This document shows, piece by piece, positions 5,638 through 20,556 of a stretch of DNA of 21,828 bases (its first letter is position 1; each line of letters begins with the position of its first letter). The position numbers were made by a program, and so were the translations under genes. Below the pieces are notes generated by a model. That model was not told the DNA's origin. It was given only the letters and a program-made list of their open reading frames with translations, and made no database searches. Origin of the DNA: a virus; the IMG/VR virus record IMGVR_UViG_3300042319_001382, positions 1-21,828 of that record; one strand, written 5' to 3'.

Positions 5638-8600
5638 ATGGACATCGCCACGCTCAAAATCGCAATAGACACGCGGGAGGCATTGACCGCCCGGCGTGTG
5701 CTTATAAGCATCGAAGACCAAGCGGGCAAGACCGAGAAAGCCACCATAAGGATGGCGAAGCAAAGCACCCATGCGCTCGGCGATATGTCGGGCTTTATCG
5801 GGCGAGTTGCTGGCGCTTTGGCCGCGGCAAACTTGGCCCAGCAATTTATCAGAGTGGCCGATTCGGTGACGGTGCTCAACAACCAGTTGAAGCTGGCCAT
5901 GGGCACCGCTCAGGCGGCTGGGCAAGCCTACAAAGATCTCTACATCATCGCCCAGCAATCGCGGGTTTCGTTCACCAGTCTGGGCGGCACGTTTGCGCAA
6001 ATCCGCAGGGCGACCGAGGATACGGGACTGAGCTATGGCCGCTTGCTGACAGTGACCGAGGCCATTGGTAACGCCATGGCGGTGTCAGGTGGAGCTGCGC
6101 ACAGTATGAACGCGGCGCTGATCCAGTTACAACAGGGCTTGGCATCTGGCACATTGCGCGGCGAAGAACTGAACAGCGTCATGGAGCAGACGCCACGACT
6201 GGCCCAAGCCATTGCAGACGGTTTGGGCATCACCCGTGGACAGCTTCGCGCAATGGGTCAAGACGGCAAGCTGACGAGCGATGCCGTCATTCGCGCGCTG
6301 GAATCGCAAGCTGGCGTACTCAAGGGCGAGGTGGCCAACTCCACACTGACAGCTGGGCAGGCTTACACGGTCATGGCAAACGCCACGACAAAGATGATCG
6401 GGCAATTTGACCAATTGACGGGCGCAAGTGCTGGAGTCGCTTCGGCCATGAAGTCTATCGGTTCGGCCATGGATGGTCTGGGCGTTTTCATCGAAAACAA
6501 CAAGGAGGGAATTTTGGCGATTACGGGCGCTCTGGCTGGCGCGGCGGTCGTTGCGGGCATTGTGAAAATGGCGGGCGCTATCGGGCTTGTGACTGCGGCG
6601 TTTACGGCGCTGACTGCGGTTATTGCGGCCAACCCCGTGGGCCTTGTCTTGCTTGGCATTGGTGCAGTTGGTGGGGCTATTGCTGGCATGAATGCGTATA
6701 ACAACGCCTTCGCAAAGACCCGCGAGGGCATGGTTGAGACAATCAAGCGACTGGAAGAAACCAACAAGTCAGTCGAGAAAAGCATTTATGGGCCACCAAA
6801 AGCGGCGGCGATGCAGCACGTAGAGGCGCGCCGGAAACAAATCGAAGGCTTGCGCAAAGAGATCGAAAAGCTGGACGCAGCGGCAATCAAGGCGGGCGGC
6901 GGATCCGGCTCAATTGGCAGCGGCGACACCGCATTGATGCGAGAGCAGGGCAAGGCTTATGCGGCCATGGCCGGGGAGCGTCAGAAATTCATTGATGGGG
7001 CAATGACGGCCACTCAAAAAATGAATGCAGAGCTTGAAAAGGCTCGCAAGGCATTTGGCGGCATGATCCCTCAAAACGTGGAAGAGGCCATCAGGGGGAA
7101 ATATGCGGGGGCAATTGAAAAGGCCACAGACGAAACAAGAAAGCTGATCGATGCCGGTATTGAACTTCAAAAATCGCTCACTGCAAAAGATTCCGGGCTT
7201 TCGCCGGAATTTGCAAAGCAGTTGGAATCGCTTGATGCGGCATACAAGTCCGGGAAATTAAGCACTGACCAACTGCTGGAATCTCAGCGCCTATTGCTTG
7301 AGCAACAGCCATTTATGATTGACGCGGCGAAACGTGAGGCCGATGCTATCAAGGAAGCGGCAAAGGCCCAAGAGGCCATGACCAAGCTGCACGAAGACAG
7401 CCTAGAAGCTCAAATCAGGCGCGTCGAATCGCTGCAAACAGAGGAAGCGGCGGTAAAAATGGCGCGTGAGTTGAATGTCTCACTCGCCCAAGCGGTCGAG
7501 ATGGTCAACATCGCCAAGCTCAAAGAGCAGCAAATCGCGGCCATGAGAAATCCCGAAGCGGTGGCGGCTATTGAGCGCGAGATTGAAGAGCGAAAAAAGC
7601 TGATCGACCTGATCGGCAGTAAAGAGGCGCGCGAGGCTTCAACCAGGGCGGCGGAAAAATCGGCGGCTGACTGGAAGCGCACGGCTGAAAAGATTGAGGA
7701 CGCGCTGACTGATTCATTGATGCGCGGCTTTGAAAGAGGCAAGGACTTCGGGCAGAACCTCAAGGACACGCTGGAAAACATGTTTAAGACCATGGTTTTG
7801 CGCCCGGTTATTCAGGCGGCCATTGGCGGCATTGGCTTGGGCGGTGGTAATGCGTCGGCTGGTGGTGTTGAAGGAATGATTACTAGGGGGGTTGGGAAAA
7901 TCCTAAATGGCGGCGGCAGTGGCGATCTTGTTTCGAGTTTGCGTGGGCTCATGAGTGGCCCGGCTAACTTTTTGACCGGGAAAACCATAAGCGCAGGCAT
8001 GGCTGGCGGGTGGACGCGGGTCGGGGATTGGCTGTCCACAAGCTCGAACAACACAATGGCCAATGCTGGATCTTGGATGCAGAACAACCCGCAGGCGGGG
8101 GCATACCTTGGCATGGCTGGTAATGCGATGGCTGGTTATGGCATAAGCAGATCGTTGTCGGGCGGATACAAAGTTGGAAACAAAGATTATGTTTCCGCAA
8201 TAGCCGGAATTGCGTCTGCAATCCCTAGCATCGGGCCAATCGCGGGGCTTGTTGGGGCGGCTGTAAACCGGGCATTTGGCATGAAGGCAAAACAAGTCAC
8301 AGGCGAATCATTGCGCGGTTCTTTCAGTGAATCAGGGGCCGACACATCTTCGGTGCAAAGCTGGTCTCAAAAAGGCGGATGGTTTAGACGCGGCAGAAGC
8401 GGCACAAACATCACGGCGGTGACTGGCGAGCTTGACGCTTACATGGATTCGACCATTGGAAGCATGTTTTCTGCTGCGCGTGAGGCGGCGCAAATTTTGC
8501 GAATGAATGCCGATGCGATCAATGGCTTCAGTCAGTCGATTGACCTGAATTTGATCGGCCTGAACGAAGAGCAGCGAAACAAGGCCATCAATGACGCCTT

Positions 8601-9609
8601 GGGGGGCTTTGGTGATGCACTTGCTCAAAAGCTAGGCGCGGAATCAATGGACGCGCTTGTTAAGTTTGCCCAGCAAGTCATGCAGCAGCGCACTCAGCTT
8701 GAGAATCAGTTGTTGCAGCTTCAGGGCAACACCACCGAGCTACGCAGGCGTGAGCGCGACTCCCTGCACGAATCTAACCGAGCCATATACGACCAGATCA
8801 AGGCTCTGCAAGACCAGGCCGCCGCAAACGAAAAAGCAGCCCAAGCCCAAGCCGAAGCCAACGCCAAGCTGCAAGCCATCGCGACAGAGCGCGCAAGCCT
8901 GCAAGACCAGCTTGACCAACTGCTGGGCAACACCGAAATTTTGCGAGCCCGTGAGCGCGCAGCCTTGCACGAATCTAACCGAGCCATATACGACCAGATT
9001 AAAGCCTTGGAAGATTCCAATGCAGCGGCAAAGGTGGCCGAGCAAATCGCCAGAGAACAGCAGCAAGCAGCAGAGCAAATCCGAAGCGCATGGAAATCCA
9101 TTGGGGATGGTTTGATGGACGAAGTAAACCGTATTCGAGGCATGGTTGCAAGCGAATCCGGGTACAGCTTGGCCTACCTGCAAAGCGAGTTCGCCATTCT
9201 CACGGCGGCAACACGGGCTGGCGACCAAGTGGCTGGCGGCAAGCTATCCGGCGTGGCGAGTGCCATCAGCGAAGCGGCAGCTATGGAGGCGAGAAGTGCA
9301 CTTGAGCTTGCAGTCATGCGCTCGAATGTCGCCAACTCACTTGAGCGCACGAATCAGATTGTGACGGGTGCACCAGTAAGCGTAAACACGCCCATATTGA
9401 CCTCAAACGCAGCCGAGGACACTAAGGCCATGCGCTCGCAAATCGAGGCCCTAAACGCCCGTATCAACGAACTGACCACAAACAGCAAGGCGGAGAATCA
9501 GGCGCAATTCAATGCCCTAAATCGCTTGGTGTCGATCATGGACAACGCAACGCAGGGCGGCTCAATGGCGGTGCGAACAATCAACGGCGAGACGGTCAAA
9601 ACATCATGA
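5638..9609 (+). CDS. Tail tape measure protein
   Basis: This 1323-aa protein sets tail length and would be ejected with the DNA. Residues about 60-240 form the tape-measure N-terminal domain, with VADSVTVLNNQLKLAMGT, LGGTFAQIRRATEDTG and GLASGTLRGEELNSVMEQTP. Residues about 290-352 are strongly hydrophobic membrane-type segments (ILAITGALAGAAVVAGIVKM and onward). Around 676-735 a lambda-tape-like C-terminal segment (RGFERGKDFGQNLKDTLENM) is seen. Residues about 1020-1140 hold two coiled-coil units with ESNRAIYDQIKAL. At about 0.15 nm per residue the tail would be near 200 nm. No clear ribosome binding site is visible; the stop overlaps the next start (ATGA). Confidence 0.93.
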   Translation: MDIATLKIAIDTREALTARRVLISIEDQAGKTEKATIRMAKQSTHALGDMSGFIGRVAGALAAANLAQQFIRVADSVTVLNNQLKLAMGTAQAAGQAYKDLYIIAQQSRVSFTSLGGTFAQIRRATEDTGLSYGRLLTVTEAIGNAMAVSGGAAHSMNAALIQLQQGLASGTLRGEELNSVMEQTPRLAQAIADGLGITRGQLRAMGQDGKLTSDAVIRALESQAGVLKGEVANSTLTAGQAYTVMANATTKMIGQFDQLTGASAGVASAMKSIGSAMDGLGVFIENNKEGILAITGALAGAAVVAGIVKMAGAIGLVTAAFTALTAVIAANPVGLVLLGIGAVGGAIAGMNAYNNAFAKTREGMVETIKRLEETNKSVEKSIYGPPKAAAMQHVEARRKQIEGLRKEIEKLDAAAIKAGGGSGSIGSGDTALMREQGKAYAAMAGERQKFIDGAMTATQKMNAELEKARKAFGGMIPQNVEEAIRGKYAGAIEKATDETRKLIDAGIELQKSLTAKDSGLSPEFAKQLESLDAAYKSGKLSTDQLLESQRLLLEQQPFMIDAAKREADAIKEAAKAQEAMTKLHEDSLEAQIRRVESLQTEEAAVKMARELNVSLAQAVEMVNIAKLKEQQIAAMRNPEAVAAIEREIEERKKLIDLIGSKEAREASTRAAEKSAADWKRTAEKIEDALTDSLMRGFERGKDFGQNLKDTLENMFKTMVLRPVIQAAIGGIGLGGGNASAGGVEGMITRGVGKILNGGGSGDLVSSLRGLMSGPANFLTGKTISAGMAGGWTRVGDWLSTSSNNTMANAGSWMQNNPQAGAYLGMAGNAMAGYGISRSLSGGYKVGNKDYVSAIAGIASAIPSIGPIAGLVGAAVNRAFGMKAKQVTGESLRGSFSESGADTSSVQSWSQKGGWFRRGRSGTNITAVTGELDAYMDSTIGSMFSAAREAAQILRMNADAINGFSQSIDLNLIGLNEEQRNKAINDALGGFGDALAQKLGAESMDALVKFAQQVMQQRTQLENQLLQLQGNTTELRRRERDSLHESNRAIYDQIKALQDQAAANEKAAQAQAEANAKLQAIATERASLQDQLDQLLGNTEILRARERAALHESNRAIYDQIKALEDSNAAAKVAEQIAREQQQAAEQIRSAWKSIGDGLMDEVNRIRGMVASESGYSLAYLQSEFAILTAATRAGDQVAGGKLSGVASAISEAAAMEARSALELAVMRSNVANSLERTNQIVTGAPVSVNTPILTSNAAEDTKAMRSQIEALNARINELTTNSKAENQAQFNALNRLVSIMDNATQGGSMAVRTINGETVKTS
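8765..8798 (+). repeat. 34-bp direct repeat in the tape measure gene, copy 1
   Basis: A 34-bp stretch starting TGCACGAATCTAACCG and ending ACGACCAGAT is identical at 8966-8999. The copies are 201 bp (67 codons) apart and in frame. They encode the HESNRAIYDQIK segment of two homologous coiled-coil units. Confidence 0.9.
8966..8999 (+). repeat. 34-bp direct repeat in the tape measure gene, copy 2
   Basis: This is the second identical copy of the stretch at 8765-8798. Flanking bases have diverged while the protein pattern (LGNTEILRARERAALHESNR against LQGNTTELRRRERDSLHESN) is kept, which suggests an older module duplication. Local conversion or selection may keep the core identical. Confidence 0.9.
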
Positions 9610-11393
9610 AATTCATCAAGCGCATCCCGATAACGGCGGGCATGATAAGCAACGAACAGGCGCAACAAACGGACCTTTGGTACACCAACGAATCCGGGGC
9701 ATTGGTTGCCGTTGCCCCATGGGTGTCCGGTCAAAACGTGGCAACTGGCGACCGCAGATCACACGATCAAAAGGTGTGGCAAGCACTCAACACGCACGCA
9801 AGCACGGCAGAGCCTGACTTATCACCGACACTGTGGGCATTTGTCGCACCGACAAACCGATGGGCGGCTTTTGATGATGCCGTTGGAAGTGCCACGCAGG
9901 AAACGGGGTCAATATCGTTCACCCTTACGCCGGGCGAGAGGTTTGATTCTTTTGGGTGCTTGGGAATGCAGGGAAGTAGTTTGATCGTGGATGTTGAAGA
10001 TCCGAATGCTAACTTCTTCACGGATTTTGTTAGCAGGACATTACCATCAGCGCGATTTTGGTCTTCTGTTACTTACGGCGGCGGTTTATTTATTGCTGTG
10101 GCAGTTAACTCAGACTTAGCCGCCACATCAACCGATGGAATTAATTGGATACAAACAACATTACCATCAGCGCAACCTTGGCGTTCAGTAACCTACGGAA
10201 ACGGGTTATTTGTTGCTGTGGCAGATGGAAACGTAGCCGCCACATCAACCGATGGGATTAATTGGACAAGCAGGACATTACCATCAGAGCAAAATTGGCG
10301 TTCAGTAACCTACGGCGGCGGTTTATTTGTTGCTGTGCAATCTTCTACAAGCGTAGCCGCTACATCAACCGACGGGATCAATTGGACAAGCAGAACATTA
10401 CCATCATCGCAAACTTGGTATTCTGTCACTTACGGCAGCGGTTTATTTGTTGCTGTGGCGATTGGCTCAAACGTAGCCGCCACATCAACCGATGGGATTA
10501 ATTGGACACAAAGAACATTACCATCAGCGCGATTTTGGTCTTCTGTTACTTACGGCGGCGGTTTATTTGTTGCTGTGGCAGTTAACTCAGACTTAGCCGC
10601 CACATCAACCGATGGAATTAATTGGATACAAACAACATTACCATCAGCGCAACCTTGGCGTTCAGTAACCTACGGAAACGGGTTATTTGTTGCTGTGGCA
10701 GATGGAAACGTAGCCGCCACATCAACCGATGGGATTAATTGGACAAGCAGGACATTACCATCAGAGCAAACTTGGTATTCTGTCACTTACGGCAGCGGTT
10801 TATTTGTTGCTGTGGCGATTGGCTCAAACGTAGCCGCTACCGCCACATACAGCGGCACGTTTTACACCACCACCATCCCCTTGATTGAGGACGAAGAGCC
10901 CGTTATTGATTTTTGGACGTATTGCTTTGCCGGATTCAAGCAAAAAGAAAACATCCTCGTCACTGGCCTGAACAGTGCAAGCTATACCACCGCCCGAATC
11001 AAAATCACAATCAGCGGTGCAACAACAACCGACCCCGTGAAACTTGGGACGTTCAATTTCGGCATGGTGCAAGTATTGGGCATTACTGAGATGGGCATGA
11101 AAACGGGCATCACGAATTACTCGTCCTACAATGTTGACCAATTCGGCGTGACTCGAATCATTCCCCAAACATTTGCAAAAAAAATCAATGCCAACGTGAT
11201 GGTTGACCGTGCGGGCTACAACACGGTGTTTCAATCATTGGTGGACTACAAAGACACAGCCGTGATTGTGTTCCCGAGCGATTCGGAGGACTACTCAAAA
11301 GCAATTACTTACGGCCATATCCGTGAATGGTCATTGTCGATTGACTACCCGACTTATACAATGCTGCCCATTGAAGTGCGCGGCCTAACCTGA
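9606..11393 (+). CDS. Tail tip/fibre protein with seven tandem propeller-type repeats
   Basis: This 595-aa protein starts on the ATGA overlap with the tape measure stop. Residues 1-142 form an N-terminal domain beginning MKFIKRIPITAGMISNEQ. Residues 143 to about 414 hold seven repeats of 39-40 aa with the pattern LPS-x-W-SVTYG-GLFVAVA followed by VAATSTDGINW. Seven units of this size with an Asp-box-like STDGxxW turn suggest a seven-bladed beta-propeller. The last unit lacks the STDGINW closing. Residues about 415-595 form a separate C-terminal domain ending TYTMLPIEVRGLT, of a type common in betaproteobacterial phage tail proteins. A role at the tail tip in receptor contact is inferred from position and fold. 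Confidence 0.75.
   Translation: MKFIKRIPITAGMISNEQAQQTDLWYTNESGALVAVAPWVSGQNVATGDRRSHDQKVWQALNTHASTAEPDLSPTLWAFVAPTNRWAAFDDAVGSATQETGSISFTLTPGERFDSFGCLGMQGSSLIVDVEDPNANFFTDFVSRTLPSARFWSSVTYGGGLFIAVAVNSDLAATSTDGINWIQTTLPSAQPWRSVTYGNGLFVAVADGNVAATSTDGINWTSRTLPSEQNWRSVTYGGGLFVAVQSSTSVAATSTDGINWTSRTLPSSQTWYSVTYGSGLFVAVAIGSNVAATSTDGINWTQRTLPSARFWSSVTYGGGLFVAVAVNSDLAATSTDGINWIQTTLPSAQPWRSVTYGNGLFVAVADGNVAATSTDGINWTSRTLPSEQTWYSVTYGSGLFVAVAIGSNVAATATYSGTFYTTTIPLIEDEEPVIDFWTYCFAGFKQKENILVTGLNSASYTTARIKITISGATTTDPVKLGTFNFGMVQVLGITEMGMKTGITNYSSYNVDQFGVTRIIPQTFAKKINANVMVDRAGYNTVFQSLVDYKDTAVIVFPSDSEDYSKAITYGHIREWSLSIDYPTYTMLPIEVRGLT
10032..10845 (+). repeat. Seven in-frame tandem repeats (117-120 bp units)
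   Basis: Units begin at 10032, 10152, 10269, 10389, 10509, 10629 and 10746. Units 2 and 6 are 117 bp and the others are 120 bp, except the last, which is incomplete. Units 5 and 6 (10509-10745) are nearly identical to units 1 and 2 (10032-10268): they differ in the first two codons and one internal base (ATT/GTT). Unit 7 starts like unit 3 and continues like unit 4. This shows a block duplication followed by loss of about one unit. Confidence 0.95.
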
Positions 11394-11403
11394 GAGAAAG
11401 CCC

Positions 11404-12117
11404 ATGCCAGTACCAATTCCACCAACAACACCCGGCGCACCGCCAGCAGCGCCACAGCGAAGCGAGCCGTCCACGTTTTCGGCAAGAATGGATGCTTGGC
11501 TTCTTTGGTTCGCGTCATTCTGGACTTGGCTTTTCGATCTCGTTCCATGGATTCAAGCCCGGGCGAATGACACCGAATCATGGGCGAATCAGGCAAGCCA
11601 AAGCGCAACCACGGCTGGCTTGACGGCCAATGCTTCGATGTGGAATCCGTCCACCAACTATGCCCTTGGTCAAAACGCAATCAGCCCGACCAATTTCCAG
11701 ACGTACCGTAGGCGGGTTGCCGGGGTAAGTGCCACTGACCCGGTAAGTGATGCAACGAATTGGGCGGCGGTGGCGGCGGTTCCTGACGAGAGCGTGACCG
11801 CAGCCAAACTTGCAAATGGGCTTTTTGCTTGCCGTGCATGGGTGAACTTCAACGGCACTGGCACTGTGGCGATTCGTGCTAGTGGGAACGTGTCGAGTAT
11901 TACGGACCAGGGAACGGGAGCATTCGTCATCAACTTCACGACTGCGATGCCTGACTCTGCCTACGCTGCTGTGGGAACTGCTGTTAACTCGGAAAACTTT
12001 TTTACTGGCATCACTTCTTCCATTCCCACGCAATTGTCGGGCTGCGAAATAAGGGTGACGACTGATGCTGGCTCTTTAAATGACCCAAATTTTTGCTCTT
12101 ACGCATTCTTTCGTTAA
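11404..12117 (+). CDS. Tail fibre-like protein
   Basis: This 237-aa protein begins with a Pro-rich segment (MPVPIPPTTPGAPPAAP). An aromatic-rich stretch follows at about 28-50 (MDAWLLWFASFWTWLFDLVP), then a helical linker ANDTESWANQASQSATTAG. The C-terminal half, from CRAWVNFNGTGTVAIRASGN to the FFR end, is a widespread phage fibre tip-type domain. This domain is often exchanged between phages and contacts receptors. It lies directly after the propeller tail protein. No separate chaperone of the lambda Tfa type is recognised, although the next genes may serve it. Confidence 0.75.
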   Translation: MPVPIPPTTPGAPPAAPQRSEPSTFSARMDAWLLWFASFWTWLFDLVPWIQARANDTESWANQASQSATTAGLTANASMWNPSTNYALGQNAISPTNFQTYRRRVAGVSATDPVSDATNWAAVAAVPDESVTAAKLANGLFACRAWVNFNGTGTVAIRASGNVSSITDQGTGAFVINFTTAMPDSAYAAVGTAVNSENFFTGITSSIPTQLSGCEIRVTTDAGSLNDPNFCSYAFFR

Positions 12118-18284: not shown

Positions 18285-18962
18285 TCATGCCGCTTTGTGC
18301 AGCATGTCGGCGTTGGCGGCGCTGCCTTTGCGGCGCAGCGTCGATTCGTATTGCAAGACCAGGGCTCGGAAAGCGATCAGGTCACGCTCCATCGCTTCGA
18401 TGTAGTCGTCGTCGCGGTCGATGTGCTTCCAGTACAAATCCAGCTTGGCGGACTCCAGCGCGGGGCAGTACAGGCCGAAGTGCCACCACTTGCGCCCGGT
18501 GATCCACATGCACCCCTGAATCTGGTCGATGTACTCGGCAATGTCGTTTTCAAGCAAAACGGGCATGAGGCTGTCTGGAGACACCAAGCACTTATATTCG
18601 GACCCGCCATCGTTGCCGATCAGGCCGTCAGCGCTGGCACCAAAACATGAATCGTCGGTTTTCACAAACCCGGCTGTCTCCACGATCACCCCGGCTTCTT
18701 CTTCGTGGCGGGCACGGGCCATGGGTTCAAGTTCGTGGCCGCGCTTCATTTGCCATGTCTCAAAGCCTTCATCCAGCGGCCTTCCACTGATTCGCTCAAT
18801 GGCCAACTTGAAGGCGTACTTTTTGGCGGCTTGGGTGAAGTCGCCTTTGTTCGGGCCGGACTTGAGGCGTTCGCGGGCTACCTTGAACATGCTGGCGGTG
18901 ATCACCCCTGCACGGGCGGCGTGCCATTCTTCGCTGCCCTGGGTGCATTGAATGAGGATCAT
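18285..18962 (-). CDS. YqaJ/lambda Exo-type 5'-3' exonuclease
   Basis: The ATG at 18962 has GGAG 6 nt upstream and gives 225 aa. The N-terminal motif QGSEEWHAARAGVITAS is the hallmark of the YqaJ viral recombinase family. Catalytic-type residues appear as MKRGHELEP (Glu77), FGASADG (Asp112), SEYK (Glu122 and Lys124) and Gln149 in IDQIQGCMW. The enzyme would resect duplex DNA to give single-stranded 3' ends for the RecT annealing protein encoded just upstream. Both form the phage recombination module. Confidence 0.92.
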   Translation of the reverse strand: MILIQCTQGSEEWHAARAGVITASMFKVARERLKSGPNKGDFTQAAKKYAFKLAIERISGRPLDEGFETWQMKRGHELEPMARARHEEEAGVIVETAGFVKTDDSCFGASADGLIGNDGGSEYKCLVSPDSLMPVLLENDIAEYIDQIQGCMWITGRKWWHFGLYCPALESAKLDLYWKHIDRDDDYIEAMERDLIAFRALVLQYESTLRRKGSAANADMLHKAA

Positions 18963-18980
18963 GTCGTTCTCCAAATGAAA

Positions 18981-19000
18981 AGCCTGCACGGTGGCGGGCT
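18981..19000 (-). terminator. Attenuator-like hairpin before the exonuclease gene
   Basis: On the minus strand AGCCCGC-CACCGT-GCAGGCT has 7-bp arms with one mismatch, followed by TTTC. It lies in the 125-bp gap between RecT and the exonuclease, 9 bp before the GGAG of the exonuclease. The second repeat copy (18986-19005) contributes one arm. Terminator strength is probably low. Confidence 0.5.
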
Positions 19001-19087: not shown

Positions 19088-20167
19088 TCAGCCGCGAAGC
19101 TCGGCCAGTCGCTCGTCAAAGCGTGCGTTCAGGTTCTTCACTGCCTCGTTGTCGGTGATAGCGTTGATCCAGTCAGCGGCTACGTAAAGCGCATCCTCGT
19201 TCGTGGCTGCATTGATCTTGGCCAGCACCTGTTCGACTGTGACTTCGCCCGTAGTCTCGGCTGCTTTCGCCTCCGGCTCAACCGTTCTGGACTTGTCCAC
19301 ATCTGAGGCTGCGGCTTTCAAGCGTTCATGTTCCCCGGCCAGCAGTTTACGGTCTTCTTTGCTTGCCGTCTTCCAAAATTCCTGATAACCGGCCATGCCC
19401 TTGGATGCGGCGGCTTCGGCGGTGGCGATCAGGGCAGGGCTGGCGGTTGGCTCAAGCACATCGGCGGTGCCCATATCCACCGGCACCGAAAATTCCTGCA
19501 ACTCGTCCGGGGTGTAAACGCCCAGGATCACATCGGGGGCATACAACCGCGCCCAACGCTTTTGCGCCAGATAGGCCAGTTGCTGCTTGGGGTCTTCCGT
19601 CCACAGCGTTGAGTTGCGGGTGCGGGCTTGGGTCATCAGCAATTCCAGCATTCGCGGCCCTGCCTCACCCTTGATCGTGGCCCACACTCGCACGCCAAGG
19701 CCGTGCTCGTCGTTTGTGTTCCAGTCCGGCATCATGTATTTCTTGGGGTAGCCGTTGTCGTCCTTCTTGGTCTTGCTTTCAACCATCTTAAATTTGCCGA
19801 CGATTTTTTCCCATGGACCAAACCACTCAAAGTTGAAGCGGTCGGCCAACAAACTGCTGGAGTTGATCACGCTGGCCACAAGCTGGGCCTCGTAGCCCAA
19901 GACCCCGTTAATCGGGTAAGTCTTCTGTGCCACTGCAAATGGGTTCATTCCCCATGTGGTGGCCTGCATGACCACTGCCAGGCAGTCGCCGGGTTTGCCA
20001 TGGAAGTGCTGAGGCACCGTGCTGCGGGCGGTAGCCATGAGGTTGGCGAAGCGCTCCATGCGCGCCAGCGCGTTCATGTCCATCATCAGCGCGGCGCTGC
20101 TGGTGTTGAAGGCGGGGGCAGGTGGTGTCTGCACTGCTGCGATTTCGGTGTTTGTGGTGGCGTTCAT
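19088..20167 (-). CDS. recT: RecT-family single-strand annealing protein
   Basis: The start at 20167 overlaps the upstream stop (ATGA), giving 359 aa. The RecT core spans about residues 30-240: DCLAVVMQATTWGMNPFAVA, QKTYPINGVLGYEAQLVASV, then GVRVWATIKGE and a WARLYAPDVILGVYTPDEL segment. The C-terminus (VEQVLAKINAATNEDALYVA) is an acidic-helical extension that may contact partners. RecT binds ssDNA ends made by the adjacent exonuclease and anneals homologous strands. Gene order is RecT first, exonuclease second. Confidence 0.92.
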   Translation of the reverse strand: MNATTNTEIAAVQTPPAPAFNTSSAALMMDMNALARMERFANLMATARSTVPQHFHGKPGDCLAVVMQATTWGMNPFAVAQKTYPINGVLGYEAQLVASVINSSSLLADRFNFEWFGPWEKIVGKFKMVESKTKKDDNGYPKKYMMPDWNTNDEHGLGVRVWATIKGEAGPRMLELLMTQARTRNSTLWTEDPKQQLAYLAQKRWARLYAPDVILGVYTPDELQEFSVPVDMGTADVLEPTASPALIATAEAAASKGMAGYQEFWKTASKEDRKLLAGEHERLKAAASDVDKSRTVEPEAKAAETTGEVTVEQVLAKINAATNEDALYVAADWINAITDNEAVKNLNARFDERLAELRG

Positions 20168-20556
20168 TTTTGGCTTTCTGCAAGGGTTTTGAATTCGTCG
20201 GCACGCTCTGCAAGCCAACGGATGGCTGTCGCCAGTGGTACATCGCGAATGTCGGCGATGGTCTGCGCCAGATCTTCGGCGCATGGTGTCTCATCCAGCG
20301 GCGCAGGCTCGTCAATGACAGGCGCGTCAAGGGCTGTGGCAAGGGCAGTGTATGCGGCCAAGCCCGTGGGCATGATCTGCCCCAATGCTTCGCGGGGATC
20401 GTCGGCCAGCACTTGGGCGGGCTTTTCTGGCTTGTAAATGGATGGAAACCCAAGCCCCCCCATGATGGCGTTGATAGCCTGCCGTTCGTCTTGGGGAGGT
20501 CTGTTTGCTTTGCTTGGCGGCATGCCAAAAATGTTGGCGACAAAATCATTTGTCAT
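20164..20556 (-). CDS. Unknown protein upstream of RecT
   Basis: This 130-aa protein has a strong GGAG 6 nt before its ATG and a stop overlapping the RecT start. It begins MTNDFVANIFGMPPSKANRP, with IMGGLGFPSIYKPEKPAQVL in the middle and a helical end, IRWLAERADEFKTLAESQK. The close coupling to RecT suggests a role in the recombination module, but no domain is recognised. Confidence 0.75.
   Translation of the reverse strand: MTNDFVANIFGMPPSKANRPPQDERQAINAIMGGLGFPSIYKPEKPAQVLADDPREALGQIMPTGLAAYTALATALDAPVIDEPAPLDETPCAEDLAQTIADIRDVPLATAIRWLAERADEFKTLAESQK

Follow-up and report, generated by a model that had tools for sequence, protein, structure and literature searches.

The window analysed here, i.e. 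the entire 21,828-nucleotide stretch of viral DNA (IMG/VR record IMGVR_UViG_3300042319_001382, a linear fragment of 21.8 kb), contains a gene in which almost identical repeat units lie among units that are considerably more diverged, and it raises the question as to how such an array came about and what role it may play in a phage tail. The reading which we favour, and which as a whole we would put at roughly two chances in three, is that the gene product carries an optional tail-tip propeller which would contact the host through one face, and whose blades would be copied by recombination while their number is held at seven.

The gene in question (9606–11393, plus strand, as are all features below unless otherwise indicated) encodes a protein of 595 aa according to the open reading frame list and lies directly 3′ of the tape-measure gene (5638–9609; TMP_3 match, E = 4e-56), the 3′ end of which it overlaps. 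The protein matches phrog_6278 with E = 3e-46 with the propeller present, and its counterpart in relative L007, which is devoid of the propeller, matches the same family over its whole length (E = 1e-49). Members of phrog_6278 are approximately 300 aa in length, and their gene immediately follows that of the tape measure in phages of Vibrio, Caulobacter, Salicola, Synechococcus and Limnohabitans. As judged from both the profile match and the gene order, the window protein is a phrog_6278 tail-tip-like protein, and it would form part of the tail tip of a siphovirus-like virion. Domain-family matches of its propeller were limited to EPTP and DUF6242, and an NCBIfam search gave no useful match. 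A megablast of the whole window against phage records found nothing and a contig search employing the propeller-less protein as query found no relative; the distant core proteins are so diverged that their alignment was of no use as a search query.

The host protein comprises an N-terminal part (residues 1–133; 9606–10004), which is near-identical in the propeller-less relatives L007 and L008 and gives a weak CBM_5_12-like match below the cut-off, and a C-terminal part with a predicted tail-tip tube-like fold (10854–11390), the phrog_6278 match covering residues 412–594. In L007 and L008, which are 96% identical to the window protein outside the propeller, these two parts are joined directly, the join reading '...VIDP-IIGTFYTTT...' as against '...VEDP-[propeller]-SGTFYTTT...' in the window. 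A linker (NANFFTDFVS; 10005–10034), delimited by the L007 alignment and the strands of the L007 model, leads into the propeller from a hairpin turn after D132-P133. In the L007 model (pLDDT 86) the insertion point is the turn between strands 125–132 and 136–144, and Foldseek relates this model to tail-tip and baseplate proteins of lambda, T1, monocin and diffocin by partial matches that cover about one third of the protein. The propeller is present or absent as a cassette, situated where the phrog_6278 core makes a beta-hairpin turn. Since most members of the family are without the insert, it is likelier that the propeller was gained in the clade of the window than that it was lost elsewhere.

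Elsewhere in phrog_6278, unrelated inserts are located at residues 7, 39 and 51. In Vibrio phage K73 (L028 4053–5828), residues 40–325 constitute a seven-repeat, NHL-propeller-like insert whose insertion site is residue 39; it contains seven DGxxY repeats, matches the NHL propeller of PknD (E = 2e-6) and is a second, unrelated propeller, gained independently at another loop of the phrog_6278 protein. The phrog_6278 protein takes accessory modules at at least four sites, inclusive of this unrelated second propeller in Vibrio phages. In Limnohabitans phage DC31 (L021 7467–9257), a propeller with blades of the family found in the window (DUF6242 match) is not inserted in the phrog_6278 gene but encoded two genes further downstream.

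The array consists of seven in-frame units of 40, 39, 40, 40, 40 and 39 aa followed by the terminal unit, in agreement with the original prediction of seven units of 39–40 aa, except that the first unit starts at 10035 rather than at 10032; Tandem Repeats Finder places the array at 10032–10837. Units 1 to 4 occupy 10035–10154, 10155–10271, 10272–10391 and 10392–10511, respectively. Unit 5 (10512–10631) is a copy of unit 1 (118/120) and unit 6 (10632–10748) a copy of unit 2 (117/117), so that units 1–2 (10035–10271) and units 5–6 (10512–10748) are identical at 235 of 237 bp, as had been noticed beforehand, while other pairs of units exhibit approximately 70–88% DNA identity. The duplicated tract as a whole measures 256 bp (10038–10293 and 10515–10770; 255/256 identical, at a lag of 477), extends 22 bp into units 3 and 7, and includes one exact run of 201 bp that begins at 10093. 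Unit 7 (10749–10841) is indeed a chimera of units 3 and 4: its first 22 bp are those of unit 3, with a GAG codon exclusive to units 3 and 7, and its remainder is the body of unit 4, 72 bp of which (10409–10480) recur exactly at 10766–10837 (+357). According to the unit profile, closing half-blades are located at both ends of the array, unit 7 closing the ring with the N-terminal strand. In 29 further viral propeller arrays with blades of this family, near-identical internal blocks reach at most 77 bp, on account of which the 256-bp copy is not attributed to chance and the array stands out from its family.

Structure prediction, which had been proposed for residues 143–414 as a check of the propeller, indeed returned one: the AlphaFold model, based on 18 aligned rows, shows the regular strands of seven blades at residues 141–414 with a pLDDT of approximately 97. 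The N- and C-terminal flanks are modelled at low confidence owing to little alignment depth, and the L007 model covers both. The best PDB matches obtained with Foldseek were the photosystem II assembly factor YCF48 and virginiamycin B lyase, both of which are seven-bladed (TM 0.73–0.86 depending on the target), while matches to viral structures reached a TM of 0.93. As modelled, the domain is therefore a closed seven-bladed beta-propeller, as originally predicted. The blade number is also usual for the family, as 18 of the 24 complete, well-scoring viral arrays in our IMG/VR survey, retrieved by means of the blade sequence, span seven blades, being built of six whole units plus one blade that is split between both ends.

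The age of the copying may be deduced from a comparison of unit number and order in relatives, as had been suggested at the outset. Relative L003 possesses seven blades, as does the L005/L004 array, which was merged from two contigs of one metagenome that are broken inside the array. The repeat of the window is absent from both of these arrays, the blade sequences of which differ from those of the window, and the copying therefore took place after the window phage and these relatives had diverged; blade order and content thus bear out the recent event that the original prediction had assumed. L003 and L005/L004 have most of their blades in common by position. Blades 3 and 4 of L005/L004 are identical in their first half (54/54), the second half of blade 4 has its nearest counterpart in blade 4 of L003 (61/66), and the first half of blade 4 of L003 is identical to that of blade 5 of L005/L004 (54/54). 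Half-blade exchange thus occurs in the relatives, and the event in the window is the largest of several such events. Blade 2 of L003 (6352–6489) additionally harbours an extra in-frame 18-bp copy in the B-C region (AGSNVA repeated), a small tandem duplication.

An array of this kind could be a product of assembly, either because two strain variants were joined or because a repeat longer than the reads was misresolved, in which case the true array would differ. In keeping with this possibility, the exact repeat exceeds usual k-mers and short reads, and the contigs of three relatives (L004, L005 and L006) end inside the array. However, the reading frame is open, the junctions are in register and there are exactly seven blades; a graph in which the loop was followed zero times or twice would yield 3 or 11 blades, while the path with single-copy edges (one loop) gives seven, the number of the family. 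Moreover, L006, which derives from another metagenome, is identical to the window at 564/564 positions from the gene start to the end of its contig, and its last base corresponds to window position 10169, so that it covers exactly the first 77 bp of the 201-bp exact repeat. An assembler that builds a de Bruijn graph at k = 77 halts in this manner at a true branch point, and the end of L006 would reflect such a real branch point in the assembly graph of the other sample. Given this break in a contig from a second sample, the array is probably real, its copy number being that of the assembled contig; assembly error, which the original prediction had itself raised, is, in view of the L006 break and the seven-blade path, very unlikely. 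With regard to the history of a real array, the original prediction had envisaged that a block of four units was duplicated to eight and that one unit was then lost through fusion of units 3 and 4. One duplication and one in-register deletion would cover both the 256-bp and the 72-bp tracts, but this history presupposes an ancestor with four units, a state seen in no relative, and since the close relatives and most of the distant arrays have seven blades, it is not favoured and we regard it as unlikely. Unit 5 begins with AGA, like unit 4, and not with AGG, like unit 1; this single base hints faintly at a unit that already resided after unit 4, and would be explained by a junction that fell within the shared ACATTACCATCA of that unit. 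A better fit than duplication and loss is that blades 5–7 were overwritten inside an existing seven-blade array.

In such overwriting, a copy of a tract of approximately 256 bp that takes in blades 1 and 2 and the beginning of blade 3 would have replaced blades 5 and 6 and the beginning of blade 7, while a second tract would link blades 4 and 7, the body of blade 7 being common to blade 4, with seven blades kept throughout. More generally, homologous recombination between near-identical blades may move whole blades and half-blades within the gene, the alike conserved strands would hold the copying in register, and only those arrays that have seven blades would close into a working ring, with the consequence that sequence changes while number holds. 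The route may have been unequal recombination or gene conversion, with slippage as a further candidate, and its direction as given here and the selection on closure are likewise inferred. The window also encodes a YqaJ/RecE-like exonuclease (18285–18989, minus strand) and a RecT annealase (19088–20284, minus strand), and that either takes part in the copying of blades is a guess.

The variability of the blades was assessed by simple counting in 18 inner units of three arrays, the loops being defined from the structural model. The D-A and B-C loops of a propeller lie on one face, the face assignment in the present case having been derived from strand order. For these loops pN was 0.39 and pS 0.21, as compared to 0.07 and 0.31 for the A-B and C-D loops and 0.09 and 0.24 for the strands; amino acid change in the D-A and B-C loops is thus about five times that of the other face at a lower level of synonymous change. 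None of 39 circular shifts of the loop mask reached the observed pN. The pN/pS above 1 in the loops is derived from few synonymous sites and from units that recombine, and the values for loop codons chosen from the data (3.1 overall and 11.6 within the window) are biased upward, the structure-defined set being the one to trust. One face of the propeller is hypervariable. This hypervariability, in combination with the dispensability of the domain and its tail-tip position, points to an optional adhesion module, of which one face, made up of the D-A and B-C loops that each blade contributes, would contact a variable structure on the host surface. The earlier description of the array as a fast-evolving, likely receptor-contact module is thereby upheld, host binding itself being presumed. 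It may be tentatively suggested, as a possible rather than a probable extension, that number-locked shuffling of blades, perhaps aided by RecT and the exonuclease, generates new combinations of loops on this face, such that relatives from the same habitat differ in host contact while the scaffold is unchanged.

The propeller might instead have a structural or enzymatic role, for example in glycan cleavage or stabilisation, with its identical blades the result of neutral homogenisation that involves no host contact. Propellers are often enzymes, and one of the best fold matches is to virginiamycin B lyase. Against such a role, pN exceeds pS in the loops of one face, with conservation of the strands and of the opposite face, close relatives dispense with the domain, and no conserved polar site that would set a single blade apart stands out in the unit alignment, which in our opinion makes it distinctly unlikely. 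It was also considered whether a diversity-generating retroelement (DGR) mutates the loop codons, as position 8 is always NNT, encoding seven amino acids with an invariable third-base T, and position 25 is mostly NNC. Third-base change is, however, missing from other conserved codons too, no template-like copy was found outside the gene, and neither the window nor the records of close relatives contain a reverse transcriptase; a search of 37 different records found none in this phage group, the relatives' records being fragments. In G009, a propeller-bearing record that does possess a DGR, the variable repeat is located in a separate, non-propeller frame. With neither a reverse transcriptase nor a template found in these fragmentary records of the phage group, DGR mutagenesis is regarded as extremely improbable. 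If the favoured reading of an optional, host-contacting propeller is correct, the phage varies its host contact without a DGR by means of an optional cassette in which the number of blades is fixed and one face is hypervariable, a proposition that is testable as the alleles of close relatives include some that lack the propeller, some that have it and some in which it is shuffled differently. Taken together, the original interpretation stands with respect to the propeller, the recency of the copying and the fast-evolving, likely contact module, whereas the duplication of four units and loss of one is not favoured; it had overlooked that the whole propeller is a cassette and that half-blades are exchanged in the relatives.

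The closest parallel in mode of working is provided by the HNWD genes of Podospora anserina, in which WD40 repeat exchange is combined with positive selection at codons 7, 9 and 25, 27 on the top face (PMC2873952, PMC1805685). As in HNWD, near-identical repeats, intragenic exchange and groups of variable codons (here 6–8, 10 and 24, 25) are observed: concerted evolution is evident from the 256-bp and 72-bp tracts and from the half-blade copies in relatives, and diversifying selection on top-face loop codons from pN/pS by loop class as obtained by simple counting. In contrast to the NLR-type allorecognition proteins of fungi, which are composed of WD40 repeats in variable number, the present protein belongs to a phage tail and has seven Asp-box-like blades; no WD40 or NACHT family match was found in the 595-aa protein, which is not a member of HNWD but represents an HNWD-like mode of working in a different protein family.

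Among highly repetitive beta-propellers, Pereira and Lupas (2022) attributed 92% to global amplification of a single blade, one case to a two-blade fragment and the rest to local events (PMC9218822). The window shares with these propellers, which include viral members, a recent amplification of blades in a closed propeller, but differs in that two blades and the start of a third were recopied within an otherwise diverged seven-blade array; its unit pairs exhibit approximately 70–100% identity at the DNA level, which is to be read against the defining criterion of those authors, a median blade-to-blade identity of >60% as computed by their protein-based method. Beta-propellers are also found in host-recognition or peripheral baseplate proteins of other phages, namely the five-bladed propellers of phi11 Gp45 and PRD1 P2 and the seven-bladed propeller of phiKZ gp131C (PMC4901313), although the proteins that carry them are different and recent blade copying is not described in that work. 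YCF48 (PDB 5OJR), the best PDB fold match, is seven-bladed and shares approximately 15% identity with the propeller. The phrog_6278 proteins have the core and the position after the tape measure in common with the window protein, but most lack a propeller and others bear different inserts elsewhere. Re-amplification of propellers from single blades and diversification of fungal recognition proteins by blade exchange are thus known, and the present case concerns a phage tail protein; a non-exhaustive search of the literature turned up no phrog_6278 protein with an optional propeller that is locked in blade number and diversified on one face.

Some further observations were made at this locus and in the surveyed records. 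The 152-kb record G009 encodes a reverse transcriptase and contains a 134-bp repeat pair (L198 723–856 and 985–1118), the copies of which differ at 12 positions, all at adenines of one copy. The gene that follows the propeller gene (11404–12117; phrog_11355 tail fiber) is tail-fibre-like; its first approximately 130 residues are kept in L003, L004, L007 and L009 while the C-termini differ, as is typical of a swapped tail-fibre module. Finally, the tape-measure gene contains an in-frame internal duplication (8749–8813 and 8950–9014), HESNRAIYDQIKAL occurring twice at a distance of 67 residues, which is also present in L006 and of which L003, L005, L007 and L008 have a single copy.
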